A DNA stretch of 59,274 nt, from NCBI GenBank assembly GCA_903936705.1, contig CAIZWN010000034.1:1-59274 (forward strand). The letters run 5' to 3'. The stretch's first letter is position 1. Every line of letters begins with the position of its first letter. Position numbers and translations under genes: made by a program. Below, piece after piece: positions 9,117 to 15,665 of the stretch. This stretch comes from an uncultured Myxococcales bacterium (GTDB lineage Bacteria > Myxococcota_A > UBA9042 > DTJE01). The notes under the pieces were generated by a model. The model was not told the DNA's origin, did no database searches, and was given only the letters and a program-made list of their open reading frames with translations.

Positions 9117-11405
9117 TTCTGCAAGGCGCATGAGGTATTCCTCGATCACCAGTCGGTCGCCCTCGTACAAAGCCAGGTCCATCGCCATCGAAAGCGCCAT
9201 ACGCGCCATCCTTGCATCCCCCGCCCACGTGGCAGCCTTTCCCAATGTCTTCCATGCCTCGGCGTCGAAGGGCCTGTCGTCCACACAGCCCGGGGCCACC
9301 GGCAACCCCAACGCCAGAGCGGCAGCCAGATCGTGGAATGCCTCTTCAAACTGCCCGACCGAATATAGCAGTCGCCCCGCAAGGTAACGCAGCACGGCAT
9401 CGTCCGGGACCTCGGCAGCGGCAGCAAGCAAGGCGTCCATCGCCTGACCGTCACCGCCGGCCAACGCCTCAAGCGTGGCATCGCGAGCCCGGGGAGGCAG
9501 ATCCAGCGCATGAAGGCGAGCGACAAGCGAACGCAGCTCGGGTCCATGATGGCGAACAGCCACAGCTGCGGATACCCATCCCGACTCCACGTCCGGGCCC
9601 GGGTCACGGCCGGCCACGCGAGCAGCGATGGCGCGCACGTCTCCGGCCGATACTCTGCCTGCCACTGACGGATCGGACGAGCTTCCGGCGCCCGCAAGGC
9701 CTGCCGCCAGATCCGCCACTCCCTTCAGGTCACCGGCCCGGGCCCTCAGCCTCAACAGTGCGCGACGCAAACCGACGGCGCCCGGATCGTGACGAACCGC
9801 GGCCTCAAGGCAGCTTTCAGCCCGATCCAGTTCGCCACGCTCCTCGGCCTCAATTGCATCTCCAACCATCCTGGCCACATCCACGGCACACCTGTGTCCA
9901 AGGACACCTGGTCCAAGGAACCTTCCGTATGCTCGTGCCATCAAATCAGCGGTGATCGCACCCCCAGCCACATCCCACAGGTACTGGCGCCACTCGTCCG
10001 CCAGCGCTTCCAACGTCAGCCCTGTTGCGGTTTCGAAAGTCTTGCCAGCAGCAATCGCCCTGAATGAATCGATCCCGTAGACGTCCTTGATGAAGGCTAT
10101 AAAGGACCCGGAAACAGTGTAGGCACGAGCCGGCGAAGCATTCAGGAACGATGCCGGCCCGAAAAGACCAGGCAGGTCATTAGCCACCCCGGCAAGCTCC
10201 ATTGCCAAAGCCCACTCGTGGTCTGAAGGCCCGTCGTCAGCAAATGAACACGCCTGCGCAATGCCCTCCACACGTGCCATGTCCGGAACGACGCCGAACT
10301 TGACGGGCATTCGCAGGAACCCGGGCGCCAACCGACCGGCAACGACATGGGCGATCTCGTGCTGCAGGACCGGGTCACCGACCGCAAGATCGGAAATATG
10401 AATCTCCCCCAGCCACGGCTTGGCCAGGTCCACCTGCCGCGCCCCGATCAGACGCGCCTTCTGAGCGTCATCACGGTAGATGTAGGCAATCAGAGGCGCG
10501 TCGGGCGACTCTCCAAGACATGCCGACGCCTGACGATACCTGAACCCGCAGTCCTTCAGCAGCAACGCCATCCGTGCCGGGTTTTCGGACGGGTCGTGGC
10601 GGATCGTGCACCACCGGTCGGAAACCTCGCCCGACAGAACAGTCTGAACGTTCTCCCTCGTCTCGCGAAAGCCCAGGTCCCCCGCGCGACCGAAAAGCGC
10701 CCAGCCGACCCCGAAACCGGCCGCCGCCAATGCCCACCATCGAGCCCGACGATCGATTCGCAAGCGAAGATCAATCGAGGTTATCGCGTCAACCAAAGCC
10801 CACAAGCCAACGGCAATCGCGATGCACATCGCACGAAATGCCAGGTATGGCGTCCCGACCTCCAGGCGAACGTCGTACAGCGGTCCGGGGAAGAAACCCA
10901 GGAACGGGGCGTAGAAGAAAACGGACGGCTCCCGGAAAAGGTCGACCACGGGCAGGATGAACGAGGCCACGAAAATCAGCGACCATGAAGCCACGGCCCA
11001 GCGCCGTCGCGGGATTGCAACGCCGACCAGAATGCCAGCGCAAGTCGCAAGGACTGCCGAGGCAAGCGGTCCAGCAGCATAGAAAGCCAGCCCGTATTGC
11101 CAATCGCACGGGCCGGCGAACATTGCGCTGGCAAGAATGCCAACCAGAGGCACCATCGACAGCAGGCCTGCGGCAACGAAGGCTCGGCCTCGGGCCGATG
11201 ACAAGGTCTTTCCACACTGGCGAGCCTCGGCTACCGCTGTAACCGCAAGCGATCCTGCGGCCATCGCCAGAAGGGGAGCAATGACGAGGCAGGCGTGAAA
11301 CGACAGGACGTCGAAGCCGGGAAGGAAAGAAAGGGCCAGGGAGACCAGCAAAAGAATCGCGCCCCAGGATGCAAAACGGCGTCGCAGCAAAGGTCTGCCA
11401 GCCAT
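9099..11405 (-). CDS. Membrane protein with MA-type metallopeptidase and TPR-like C-terminus
   Basis: The 768-residue protein has about 8 N-terminal hydrophobic segments. A soluble region carries H349-E350-I-A-H353 and, 27 residues after the second His, the E380-G-I-A pattern. This is the zinc-ligand layout of gluzincin peptidases of the peptidase-MA type. The C-terminal 250 residues are alanine-rich helical repeats resembling TPRs. A membrane-anchored protease acting on an envelope substrate is the natural inference; the substrate is unknown. It follows larE by 4 bp on the minus strand, so it is probably the last gene of that operon. Confidence 0.7.
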   Translation of the reverse strand: MAGRPLLRRRFASWGAILLLVSLALSFLPGFDVLSFHACLVIAPLLAMAAGSLAVTAVAEARQCGKTLSSARGRAFVAAGLLSMVPLVGILASAMFAGPCDWQYGLAFYAAGPLASAVLATCAGILVGVAIPRRRWAVASWSLIFVASFILPVVDLFREPSVFFYAPFLGFFPGPLYDVRLEVGTPYLAFRAMCIAIAVGLWALVDAITSIDLRLRIDRRARWWALAAAGFGVGWALFGRAGDLGFRETRENVQTVLSGEVSDRWCTIRHDPSENPARMALLLKDCGFRYRQASACLGESPDAPLIAYIYRDDAQKARLIGARQVDLAKPWLGEIHISDLAVGDPVLQHEIAHVVAGRLAPGFLRMPVKFGVVPDMARVEGIAQACSFADDGPSDHEWALAMELAGVANDLPGLFGPASFLNASPARAYTVSGSFIAFIKDVYGIDSFRAIAAGKTFETATGLTLEALADEWRQYLWDVAGGAITADLMARAYGRFLGPGVLGHRCAVDVARMVGDAIEAEERGELDRAESCLEAAVRHDPGAVGLRRALLRLRARAGDLKGVADLAAGLAGAGSSSDPSVAGRVSAGDVRAIAARVAGRDPGPDVESGWVSAAVAVRHHGPELRSLVARLHALDLPPRARDATLEALAGGDGQAMDALLAAAAEVPDDAVLRYLAGRLLYSVGQFEEAFHDLAAALALGLPVAPGCVDDRPFDAEAWKTLGKAATWAGDARMARMALSMAMDLALYEGDRLVIEEYLMRLAELPVNL

Positions 11406-11409
11406 CCAT

Positions 11410-12246
11410 TCACCCGTTCAGACGGCCGCTGCGAAATGGTTCAAGGTCCACGGTAACGTATGCAAATCCCGCCGCGTGGGCGGCCTTCACGACAGCTTCC
11501 CTGTCCGGGTCCATCGCCAGACGAGGCAGATCGGCCGACCGGACCTCTATTCGCACCATATCGCCGTGGAACCGAGCACGGAATTCGGCGTATCCAAGGT
11601 CGCGCAACGAGGACTCGATGGTCTCGACCTGCTTCAGCCTCTTTACGTCAATGGCCGTCCCATATGGAAAACGCGATGCCAGACATGGACTTGCCGGCCT
11701 GGCCCAGAAGGGTAAATGGTAGACATCACGGGCAAGAATGCGAACCTGTTCCTTGGTCAACCCTGCCGAAGCCAGGGGACTCAGGATGGCAAGCTCGCCC
11801 GCGGCAGTCCGGCCAGGTCGCCAGTCCGACATGTCATCCGAGGTGGTACCGTCGGCGACCGCGGCAAGGCCCAGTTCGCGCGCAACGGCCCAGGCCGTGC
11901 CGAAAACCTCCATCTTGCAGTAGTAGCAACGATCCTTCGGGTTTGAGGCGTACCTGGGGTCTTCGATTTCGTTCGTTTCACGGGTGACGAGGCGGATGCC
12001 CAGGGCAGCAGCAGCACGTTTTCCAGCCTCGAGGTCCCATGCCGGGTGCGAGGCCGAAACTGCCGTGTACGCCACGGCACGGTCCCCAAGAGTCTCCCTG
12101 GCCACAGCACACAGGAATCCCGAATCCAATCCCCCCGAAAAGCAGACAAGCATCCCGCCAGTAGAAAGCACCTGGGCCCTCACCACATCAAGACGCCCCA
12201 GCGATTCGGCATCGGGCGCCAAGCTCCCATCCTCATGTTCCGTCAT
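11410..12246 (-). CDS. larE: ATP-dependent sacrificial sulfur transferase LarE
   Basis: A 278-residue PP-loop enzyme. LarE adenylates and then thiolates the pyridinium dicarboxylate precursor of the nickel-pincer nucleotide cofactor. Visible motifs are the PP-loop SGGLDS (37-42), NPKDRCYYCK with C107 and C110, DGTTSDD, and PASPCLASRFPYG with C188. Three cysteines in this arrangement could ligate a [4Fe-4S] cluster, as in the Thermotoga-type enzyme, rather than a single sacrificial Cys; that is inference. The ATG at 12246 has GGAG about 9 nt upstream, and in-frame ATG 12264 is possible. larB, larC and larA are not in the window. Confidence 0.85.
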   Translation of the reverse strand: MTEHEDGSLAPDAESLGRLDVVRAQVLSTGGMLVCFSGGLDSGFLCAVARETLGDRAVAYTAVSASHPAWDLEAGKRAAAALGIRLVTRETNEIEDPRYASNPKDRCYYCKMEVFGTAWAVARELGLAAVADGTTSDDMSDWRPGRTAAGELAILSPLASAGLTKEQVRILARDVYHLPFWARPASPCLASRFPYGTAIDVKRLKQVETIESSLRDLGYAEFRARFHGDMVRIEVRSADLPRLAMDPDREAVVKAAHAAGFAYVTVDLEPFRSGRLNG

Positions 12247-12291
12247 CGGCAAATTCTCCACCATGGAACCCAAAGCTGTGTTGAAGAAAAC

Positions 12292-13515
12292 CTAGCGCTC
12301 ACGTCCGGCCAACTCGGCGACGACCTCGTCAAGCCCGACGTCGTTCTTGACCAGATACGCCAGCAGGAAATACATGACGTCCGCGGCTTCCCAGGCGATG
12401 TCGTCGCGGTTGCGAGCCGTCAGCAATTCGTACATCTCCTCGGTCAGCTTCCGGGGAATTCGATCGTCCTTTTCGAACAGGAACGACGTGTACGACCCAG
12501 GACGTGGATCCTGGCGCCTGGTCGCGATGATTTCATGCAAACGCTGAAGACCGAACTCGCGACCGCCATTGCCAAAGCACGAATAGATCCCCCGCGAGCA
12601 GGCGTTGCCAGCGGTATCCACGGTCAGGACGACTGCGTCGCGGCGGCATGACGCCACCGCCCGTGTCACCCGCGCCCCAGCAAGACCGTCACCATGGTCG
12701 GCCGGCGGCTCGGCGCAATTGCAAGCGAATGTCGCACAACCTGTTTCCAACGAAGTACGCAGACTGTCACAGGTGGAACACTCCAGTCGCAGAACCTGGC
12801 CAGCTCCGTCCACCACGACCGAGGAAACCCCTTCGGACGGAAAATCCAGGCAGGCAACGAACGCCTCTGCGGCGGTGAAGCGCCCCAACCTCAAGGCCGT
12901 TCCTGTCTCAACGTCCACGCCCATCCGATCAAGCTCGCGCACCTCCGCCACGGACCTGACGCCGCCCGAAACGGTCACAGGCAGGTTTGTCGCAGCGGCC
13001 AGTTCACGAACATGCTCCATTGGCAGACCAGCCATGGAACCTTCGCCCTCTACGAATGCACACGAGAACCCGGAACAATGCGGGGCCAGGATCTGCATAA
13101 CCTCGACCGGGGTCCTGCCGGTGCGCCGAGTCCATCCATCCGTCACTACATCCCACTCCAGCGCATCCACGGCCACCAGAACGCGGTTCCGCGGCAGCCT
13201 GGACAGGAATTCGCGCGACGCCGCGGTACCGATGATCACCTTGCGCGCGCCGGCACGCAGCATCCGCCTGGCCTTGTCCTCGTCCCGGATCCCGCCCCCG
13301 ACACGGCACGGAAATCGGCGCACCAGGCGGCGCAGCAGAACCTCGTTGTCCCCGCGTCCCAGCGCCGCATCCAGATCAACCACCGTGATTTCACCGACTC
13401 GTGACAGCTGCTCGGCCAGCCCCATAAGGTCGGCGCCCTCAATCGGTTCCCATCCACCGCCAGGCACGGCTCGAACGGGCTTTCCTTCCAGAACATCGAT
13501 GCCGGGAACAAGCAT
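12292..13515 (-). CDS. HisA-HisI-HisE three-domain fusion, HisA and HisI parts divergent
   Basis: A 407-residue protein. Residues 1-225 are a HisA-type (beta/alpha)8 barrel (GIDVLEG with D7, VVDLDAALG, VGGGIRDED, VSGGVRS, GTAL). The usual second catalytic Asp region (T-D-x-x-R-D-G-T) reads AFVEGEGSMAG. Residues 228-318 resemble HisI: the zinc cysteines remain (C290, C306, C313), but the DCDxD metal site reads SCRRD and the W-H-K-G-x-T-S-G-N motif is eroded. Residues 323-407 are HisE with its E-E-x-x-E (359-363) and E-x-x-D (377-380) metal residues intact. The ATG at 13515 has GGAGG 7 nt upstream. No other his gene is nearby. larE follows after a short gap. Confidence 0.8.
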   Translation of the reverse strand: MLVPGIDVLEGKPVRAVPGGGWEPIEGADLMGLAEQLSRVGEITVVDLDAALGRGDNEVLLRRLVRRFPCRVGGGIRDEDKARRMLRAGARKVIIGTAASREFLSRLPRNRVLVAVDALEWDVVTDGWTRRTGRTPVEVMQILAPHCSGFSCAFVEGEGSMAGLPMEHVRELAAATNLPVTVSGGVRSVAEVRELDRMGVDVETGTALRLGRFTAAEAFVACLDFPSEGVSSVVVDGAGQVLRLECSTCDSLRTSLETGCATFACNCAEPPADHGDGLAGARVTRAVASCRRDAVVLTVDTAGNACSRGIYSCFGNGGREFGLQRLHEIIATRRQDPRPGSYTSFLFEKDDRIPRKLTEEMYELLTARNRDDIAWEAADVMYFLLAYLVKNDVGLDEVVAELAGRER

Positions 13516-13706: not shown

Positions 13707-14276
13707 GTGACCGATCCCGAGTCCCAGCCACCTCGTCGCGAACTCTCGGTGCACATGATCAGCGAGGAGATTCAAGCTGACGTCCGCGAGGCGACCGACG
13801 CACTTCGCGAACAGGTCCTGGCGGACGCAATACGCATTCAGAAGACTGCACGGCTGATGAGTCACGGGTTGGTGGCGGCGGTTCTAGTGACACACATGGC
13901 CGCCACTGCCCTGCTTACATGGATCGTGCTGGCCAACCCCGTGCCTCACCCCGGAATGTACCCGATGATGGGACTGGTATTGTGGCTGGTTCTTACAACC
14001 CGCTTCACCGCCATGATGAGCGGGCGAAAGGCGGCGGCCATACGTGGTTTGGTCATCAATCTTCTGCTGCACGCCTTCTGGATAGCCATCCTGGTAGATC
14101 AGATTCCTGCCCGCATGATTGCAGGCAACACAATGGTCCAGCGCGACCCATTGGTCTGGCTGGCGGCTCCAATCGCGCTTTACTGCGTCGCCCTTTGCGG
14201 AATGATCGTCCACTCATCCATGCGGCGCCGCCAAGATCAACCTGTCACTGCTGTCGATGCAGAAGCCGGGCGCTAG
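13707..14276 (+). CDS. Four-helix membrane protein of unknown function
   Basis: A 189-residue protein with a charged helical N-terminus (1-50) and four hydrophobic segments at about 54-75, 83-100, 111-130 and 148-169, ending in a short charged tail. No family was recognised. It begins with GTG, preceded by GGGGG about 6 nt upstream. It is divergent from the HisA-HisI-HisE gene across 190 bp. The pattern of hydrophobicity and the good start support a real gene; its function is open. Confidence 0.65.
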   Translation: MTDPESQPPRRELSVHMISEEIQADVREATDALREQVLADAIRIQKTARLMSHGLVAAVLVTHMAATALLTWIVLANPVPHPGMYPMMGLVLWLVLTTRFTAMMSGRKAAAIRGLVINLLLHAFWIAILVDQIPARMIAGNTMVQRDPLVWLAAPIALYCVALCGMIVHSSMRRRQDQPVTAVDAEAGR

Positions 14277-14332: not shown

Positions 14333-15529
14333 CTAGGAAGTCAAAACTGTAATAGCAGTACCGTCGCCATACGAGGAAACACCCAGCGCGGCAGCCACCG
14401 TCGCGCCCATGTCAGCAAAGGTCGAACACAGTCCAAGGTCGCGCCCGCAGCCTGTGGAAATACCGGCATGCCATGCCAGCAACGGCACGTACTCGCGAGT
14501 GTGGTCCGTAGACCAGCCGGCCGTGGGGTCACAACCGTGATCAGCGGTAATCAGGACAAGGGTTTTTTCGCCGGCCGCCTCCAGAAGTGCCGGCAGGAAG
14601 GCATCAACCTCCTCGAGCGCGCTGGCATACCCGGCCGCATCACGCCGATGGCCGTAGACCATGTCGAAATCAACCAGGTTCGCAAAGACCAGACCCGGCT
14701 GGCCGCGCCGAAGAACCTCCTGGCACCGACGCAGCCCATCGGCGTTGCCCTCGGTATGAATGGATTCGGAGATCCCGCACCCGGCGAAGATGTCGGAGAT
14801 CTTTCCCACCCCAACGACCGGCAGTCCCGCTGCATTCAGTTGATCAAGTACCGTTGGACGTGGAGGGGTCATCGAGAAGTCCCGCCGGTTGTACGTGCGC
14901 GCAAAGTGGCCTTCACTCCCGATGAATGGCCGGGCAATGACGCGGGCCACCTGGAGCGGGTCCAGAAGGCGACGGGCTACCTCGCAAGCCGCGTACAGGC
15001 GCGGCAAGGGAACGGTTTCCTCGTGCGCCGCGACCTGGAAGACCGAATCGGCGCTGGTGTAAACTATCAAAGCCCCAGTCCGGCGGTGATCCTGGCCCCA
15101 ACGCTGGATGATCTCGGTGCCGCTGGCCGCGACGTTACCCATCCAATCGAACCCCGATTCCAGACGGAAGGCTTCCATCACATCAGCCGGGAAGCCGGTG
15201 TTCGTGAATGTGGCGAAGGCCTGTTCCAGGATGACCCCTGCCATTTCCCAGTGACCGGTCGTCGTGTCCTTGCCGGGAGAAGCCTCGGCCATTCTTGCGA
15301 AGAATCCATCCGGAGCGTCGACAGGCGGCACGCCGGCCACCTGGTGCAGATTGCCCAGTCCCAGGCGGCCCAGATTCGGCAGGCGCAGTCCACCCGCGGC
15401 CCTTGCCGTGTTTCCCAGCGTGTCGGCAGATGCATCGCCATAACGCCCGGCGTCGGGAAGCGCACCGATTCCCACGCTGTCCAATACCAGCCAGAAGACC
15501 CGTTCGAACGCCTTGTCCGTACTTCTCAT
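14333..15529 (-). CDS. deoB: Phosphopentomutase
   Basis: A 398-residue cytoplasmic enzyme that interconverts ribose/deoxyribose 1- and 5-phosphates in nucleoside salvage. It is an alkaline-phosphatase-superfamily metalloenzyme. Visible motifs are LVLDSVGIGALPDAG (first metal Asp), GKDTTTGHWEMAG with the phosphorylated Thr region, and ADHGCDPTAG with STDHTREYVP (metal His/Asp). The length matches the family. The ATG at 15529 sits just before the conserved start; a TTG at 15565 is open but less likely. It is divergent from the lipoprotein-purH-purD operon, so nucleotide salvage and synthesis lie back to back. Confidence 0.95.
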   Translation of the reverse strand: MRSTDKAFERVFWLVLDSVGIGALPDAGRYGDASADTLGNTARAAGGLRLPNLGRLGLGNLHQVAGVPPVDAPDGFFARMAEASPGKDTTTGHWEMAGVILEQAFATFTNTGFPADVMEAFRLESGFDWMGNVAASGTEIIQRWGQDHRRTGALIVYTSADSVFQVAAHEETVPLPRLYAACEVARRLLDPLQVARVIARPFIGSEGHFARTYNRRDFSMTPPRPTVLDQLNAAGLPVVGVGKISDIFAGCGISESIHTEGNADGLRRCQEVLRRGQPGLVFANLVDFDMVYGHRRDAAGYASALEEVDAFLPALLEAAGEKTLVLITADHGCDPTAGWSTDHTREYVPLLAWHAGISTGCGRDLGLCSTFADMGATVAAALGVSSYGDGTAITVLTS

Positions 15530-15665
15530 GGGCGGTATATTCGGCGCGAACCCGGCACCGGTCAATTCCGGGACGCCCGTGCGTGCATCGCAGGCCTGGA
15601 TGAACCCGGATCAGGATTTTGCCGTGTTCCCGAACTTACCGGCAAGCGGGCGATTTCGTGAGGCC

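Follow-up and report, generated by a model that had tools for sequence, protein, structure and literature searches.

The stretch of DNA analyzed here, the window, comprises 59,274 nucleotides and is an entire contig (CAIZWN010000034.1) of a genome of 4.85 Mb, 96% complete, from an uncultured Myxococcales bacterium. Positions 12292..13515 of its minus strand hold a gene for a protein of 407 residues, with an ATG start preceded by a GGAGG ribosome-binding site, that is a HisA-HisI-HisE fusion (the window copy). Its HisA (beta-alpha)8 barrel (residues 1-222; 12850..13515, minus strand) matches Pfam PF00977 with an E-value of 2.6e-35 (122.4 bits vs a cut-off of 23.6), and the linker plus HisE domain, that is, the phosphoribosyl-ATP pyrophosphohydrolase (PRA-PH) domain (residues 319-407; 12295..12561, minus strand), matches PF01503 at 2.1e-16 (60.6 bits vs a curated cut-off of 21.3). 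The HisI-derived domain in between (residues 223-318; 12562..12849, minus strand) scores 18 bits with PF01502, under the curated cut-off of 27 bits. ORF and domain searches thus agree with the initial annotation in placing three histidine-pathway domains in one 407-residue chain, the HisI part being sub-threshold. Among the 13 proteins of this type in the family, PRA-PH, HisA, and PRA-CH profiles match 13, 9, and 7, respectively; the MazG profile PF03819 does not match the window copy and only weakly matches one of the 13 (0.0022).

Only 18 bases downstream of the window copy lies larE (11410..12273, minus strand; TIGR00268, 1.2e-80), encoding an ATP-dependent sacrificial sulfur transferase. 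The opposite flank carries a gene for an unnamed short protein of 189 residues (13707..14276, plus strand), recognized by synteny and with no Pfam match, followed by deoB for phosphopentomutase (14333..15565, minus strand; NF003766, 4.3e-149). The gene at 13707 borders the locus in those relatives whose contigs extend far enough, among them the ones in which the his operon there is intact, and deoB does so in most relatives whose contig extends so far; deoB, purH, and purD stand beside lone copies of the fusion where contigs reach them. A functional link to these nucleotide genes was considered and rejected, as they are conserved neighbors of varying relative orientation and were treated as chromosomal background. 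A link to nickel-pincer cofactor synthesis was also discarded, larE being adjacent to and co-oriented with the fusion only in the window genome and in G007; elsewhere an HD-domain phosphohydrolase gene separates both, or gene order differs.

This HD-domain gene (L052 10608-11165; L053 about 9300-9851; L054 about 10081-10617; L049 about 1180-1716) is convergent to the fusion. In three of these four relatives it separates the fusion from larE, which was not seen on the L052 contig. It is absent from the window, where larE comes directly after the fusion. A Cys-rich lipoprotein with CDDGDxCTxDxC repeats (for example, L053 6540-7955, L055 1341-2714, and their equivalents) adjoins the fusion in relatives with enough contig, and is also absent from the window.

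The observation in the initial annotation that no other his genes are nearby holds within the window, but the genome does possess a his operon, with a second and intact HisA-HisI-HisE fusion, on another contig. In this contig (C35) hisG is found at 122.2 kb, hisF at 125.9 kb, the working fusion at 126614-127865 (L039 10612-11865), between hisF and hisD, and hisD at 128.0 kb, with hisB on this contig too, identified by reading its sequence. The annotation had held that its interpretation would fail if a histidine prototroph had no other hisA or hisI; a complete second copy is present here, so that the cell has HisA, HisI, and HisE domains besides those of the window copy. Both fusions share domain order and length and are 40% identical. 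Unlike the window copy, the operon fusion conserves all HisI residues, is flanked by hisF and hisD, and exhibits the opposite pattern of selection.

Key positions were then scored in alignment, 13 for HisA, 15 for HisI, and 10 for HisE, with HisI residue roles taken from MtHISN2 (PMC8102479). Full-length canonical fusions keep 12, 14-15, and 9-10 of them, respectively, compared with 11, 5, and 10 in the window copy. Values of 1, 5, and 9 were obtained for G011, and of 2, 3, and 10 for G004, a genome without detected his genes in which some N-terminal HisA positions are unaligned and were scored as lost. In all window-type orthologues 9-10 of the HisE key residues are kept, and the metal-binding carboxylates are conserved in 13 of 13. 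The window copy itself retains S341, T343, K356, E359, E360, E363, E376, D379, and R405, with the metal set K-x-x-E-E-x-x-E plus E-A-A-D and the S-Y-T phosphate loop all present, in agreement with the HisE motifs having been described as intact. The PRA-PH residue types that have been described for MtHISN2, namely the metal Glu/Asp, the S-x-T phosphate loop, and the C-terminal Arg (PMC8102479), are all represented.

The HisI domain of the window copy, for its part, lacks SRSR, W-x-K-G-x-[ST]-S-G, DxDxD, and the base His, and still has the three cysteines. The residue table confirms what the initial annotation had stated on the three zinc cysteines being kept, on the Asp site being degraded (DCDxD reads SCRRD at residues 289-293), and on the ruin of the W-H-K-G-x-T-S-G-N motif; the loss of the general-base His (C-H) was missing from its list. 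Regarding the HisA domain, D7, D117, and W128 are retained, the loop-6 Thr is replaced by Ala153, the GMAL phosphate loop reads GTAL, and E158 is a Glu at the loop-6 Asp position. The Asp of this T-x-x-x-R-D-G loop corresponds to D176 in S. enterica HisA (PMC9088769), and its apparent absence had been taken as a mark of lost HisA function. Nonetheless, this position is Glu in all 23 aligned canonical fusions, including those in intact his operons, indicating that the change is a lineage trait older than any decay; with 11-12 of the 13 HisA key residues kept throughout the window's own genus, and 11 in the window copy, the Glu is not confirmed as a sign of decay. Asp is observed at this position in the decayed copies of G007, G009, and G003.

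A window-type gene was found in each of the 13 family genomes. In G006 and G008 the fusion is canonical and belongs to a complete his operon, in which it is flanked by hisF and hisD; hisG lies on that contig too, in the same orientation. In G012 it is also canonical and whole, but the surrounding hisG, hisF, and hisD are ruined (L052 7644-9568): residues 3-80 of HisG are fused in frame to hisF fragments, and hisD is limited to residues 2-52, ending after about 52 residues. Misassembly is possible for this ruined operon, though the joins are in frame. In the other 10 genomes the window-type gene stands alone and its HisI is broken, HisA being also broken in 6 of them. Flanking genes are common to the intact operon of G006 (hisG...hisF-hisAIE-hisD), the ruined one of G012, and the lone copies, so that the lone copies appear to stand at the site of the ancestral his operon. 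Seven of the 10 genomes with decayed copies also hold a canonical operon fusion. In the remaining three, G003, G004, and G010 (95, 97, and 86% complete, respectively), HisG, HisD, HisI, HisF, and a second fusion were all undetected, and yet they keep the window-type gene with 10 of 10 HisE residues. Since the his genes form a single operon, their absence from each of these genomes could be due to one missing contig, although the same gap in three assemblies that are 86-97% complete is unlikely. At a broader scale, fusions of this type were matched in 40 of 52 class genomes at an E-value of 1e-20, mostly at full length; the three-domain arrangement is ordinary within this class of Myxococcota-like metagenome-assembled genomes (MAGs). 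The named relatives are MAGs labeled mostly as Myxococcota, Myxococcales, or 'Deltaproteobacteria'.

In the maximum-likelihood tree, the 10 decayed copies all fall on one side of a single branch (support 99/96), with the three canonical window-type copies adjoining them, while operon copies cluster with fusions from other families of the class. This topology implies two old fusion lineages, the second of which may have come by duplication or by transfer. The AlphaFold2 model of the window copy has a mean pLDDT of 87, and its barrel matches solved HisA/PriA structures with Z values of 26-28 over 207-223 residues. As HisA barrels filled the search with the whole model, a separate model of the second half was built and used as query; HisIE structures were then the top matches, with MazG far behind, and the HisE part superimposed on B. 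cereus HisE (1yvw) with TMt 0.87 and rmsd 1.1 (Foldseek).

Selection was evaluated per domain as dN/dS (Nei-Gojobori, 95% bootstrap intervals). In the window's own genus, window-type values are 0.111 (0.080-0.152) for HisA, 0.269 (0.186-0.392) for HisI, and 0.043 (0.024-0.070) for HisE, vs 0.098 (0.070-0.132), 0.039 (0.019-0.069), and 0.146 (0.098-0.221), respectively, for the working copy of the same three genomes; synonymous divergence exceeds 1 in several pairs, which makes single values rough and affects comparison between domains less. Thus, the order of constraint on HisI and HisE is reversed between two copies carried by the same genomes, and HisA values are matched. In the genus without detected his genes the window-type values are 0.33, 0.55, and 0.059 for HisA, HisI, and HisE, respectively, and in genus g4 they are 0.32, 0.21, and 0.031. 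Constraint at the DNA level from an overlapping gene was discarded, as the synonymous sites of HisE have diverged roughly as much as those of other parts, indicating that constraint acts on the protein.

Considering that (i) nearly all substrate-binding and general-base residues of HisI are gone, (ii) HisA is decaying in several sister lineages, and (iii) the metal and phosphate site of HisE is fully conserved, with purifying selection on this domain stronger than that on working HisE, the window copy is likely what remains of a his operon that has dissolved, and would owe its retention to the HisE domain, which would probably act as a nucleotide pyrophosphohydrolase outside histidine synthesis. 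The ancestral operon at this locus would have dissolved, with the fusion of the second operon taking over histidine synthesis or, in some genomes, with the whole pathway being lost; the old fusion would have been retained for its C-terminal domain. This domain is predicted to be a dimeric, Mg-dependent, all-alpha pyrophosphohydrolase that still converts a nucleoside triphosphate into the monophosphate and PPi, catalysis being suggested by the conservation of the metal carboxylates and of the S-Y-T loop described for MtHISN2. Where HisG is absent, its substrate should be other than phosphoribosyl-ATP, which makes a house-cleaning or other nucleotide role the most likely one. The HisA barrel and the HisI remnant would then serve as scaffold, except in the window's own genus, where the still constrained barrel may bind a phosphate ligand or retain some isomerase activity. 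The suggestion of the initial annotation that the protein had been repurposed is well in line with the inverted selection and with its retention in three genomes without a detectable histidine pathway.

This exception leads to the reading in which, within the own genus, the HisA barrel is live too, as a back-up ProFAR isomerase or a new phosphosugar isomerase, giving a bifunctional HisA and HisE protein in which only HisI is dead. The 11-12 HisA residues kept in the genus and a dN/dS of 0.11, vs 0.10 in the working copy, speak for it; a barrel constrained to this extent may still do something, and the protein is there not simply HisE plus dead weight. However, the window copy has Ala for the loop-6 Thr and an altered GMAL loop, and sister genera lose HisA yet keep the gene. 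Such an active barrel is possible but rather doubtful, and can hold together with the preferred explanation. Of the divergent functional type that the initial annotation had contemplated, the HisI part is rejected, whereas the HisA part is conceivable in this genus.

It is improbable that the window copy still serves histidine synthesis by providing extra PRA-PH activity on an otherwise scaffolding protein, even though the residue types named for MtHISN2 are kept (PMC8102479) and the window genome does have HisG. On the contrary, the gene persists in the three genomes without HisG, HisD, HisI, and HisF, and the operon copy has a complete HisE with a dN/dS of 0.15, vs about 0.10 in single-fusion lineages, a value near enough to indicate that the operon copy is not clearly relieved of its task. 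The earlier proposal of a protein acting only as PRA-PH therefore fits the residues, but cannot explain why the gene is kept in genomes where HisG is missing. There is also little to recommend HisE as a non-catalytic nucleotide-binding or dimerization module that regulates something else: in its favor, genomic context provides no partner or pathway indicating a specific substrate, and co-transcription of the fusion with its neighbors (larE, deoB, and the HD-domain gene) is not consistent, but binding alone need not demand that all metal carboxylates be conserved in 13 of 13 orthologues. Finally, a pseudogene on its way to loss, with HisE simply the last part to decay, would explain the eroding HisA and HisI motifs (up to 12 of 13 HisA positions non-canonical), but it clashes with frames open in 13 of 13 orthologues, at identities down to 36%, and with HisE dN/dS of 0.03-0.06 in pairs with well-diverged synonymous sites, so that it is highly improbable as a whole and already refuted for HisE.

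Returning to the dissolved operon with a HisE domain kept in use, we lean towards its fullest form, in which this domain has left the histidine pathway, acts on a different nucleotide from within a protein whose HisA-HisI body is dead in part or in whole, and is required strongly enough to outlive the complete loss of histidine synthesis. The family's repertoire of related enzymes does not point to a particular substrate. Extra PF01503 (MazG-like) hits occur in 12 of the 13 genomes, dUTPase (PF00692) in 12, and ITPase/HAM1 (PF01725) in 10, and all genomes with decayed copies have the three of them, except G004 for dUTPase. The idea of an obvious stand-in for a vacant house-cleaning role was therefore rejected, as the known NTP pyrophosphatases are mostly present and leave no gap that names a substrate. 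ITPase/HAM1 is absent exactly in G006, G008, and G012, those with a canonical window-type fusion, and present in the other ten; these three genomes are 82, 91, and 68% complete, and the absence may be chance or lineage loss.

Among known systems, the bifunctional PRA-PH/PRA-CH proteins HisIE (for example, Shigella 6J2L and Medicago MtHISN2 7BGM) share the HisI-HisE order and are the best structural matches to the second half of the window copy; they are also recovered by sequence search. The window copy differs from them in its destroyed HisI active site, in the HisA barrel fused in front, and in its location outside a his operon. HisE belongs to the same superfamily as MazG (Moroz et al. 2005, as cited in PMC10242683), and the putative non-histidine role of this HisE would match that of its relatives there, although its sequence and its structure both identify the domain as HisE and not as MazG. 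A switch of pathway inside this superfamily has a counterpart in Desulfovibrio, whose MazG-family protein DVU1186 seems to act as a phosphoribosyl-ATP diphosphatase (PMC5764234); there a MazG entered histidine synthesis, while the window HisE appears to have moved in the opposite direction. As for the fusion itself, a survey from 2007 names five his fusions (hisA/hisF, hisIE, hisHF, hisNB, and hisIED), none being HisA-HisI-HisE (PMC1963479), and the fused genes listed in a 2023 review do not include hisA. In the part of the literature covered no report of a HisA-HisI-HisE fusion was found, hits to 'HisAIE' being unrelated, and earlier reports may exist. The three-domain arrangement seems to be one more his fusion that published lists do not include.

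One family thus appears to record how a gene exits a pathway, from an intact operon, through a ruined operon in which only the fusion is whole, to a lone fusion whose first two domains erode while the third is tightly held. All stages occur within a single bacterial family, which makes the process testable, and the substrate that a HisE domain would use outside histidine synthesis becomes a clear target to search for. They also carry a warning, as annotation may call this gene a histidine enzyme in genomes that are unable to make histidine.
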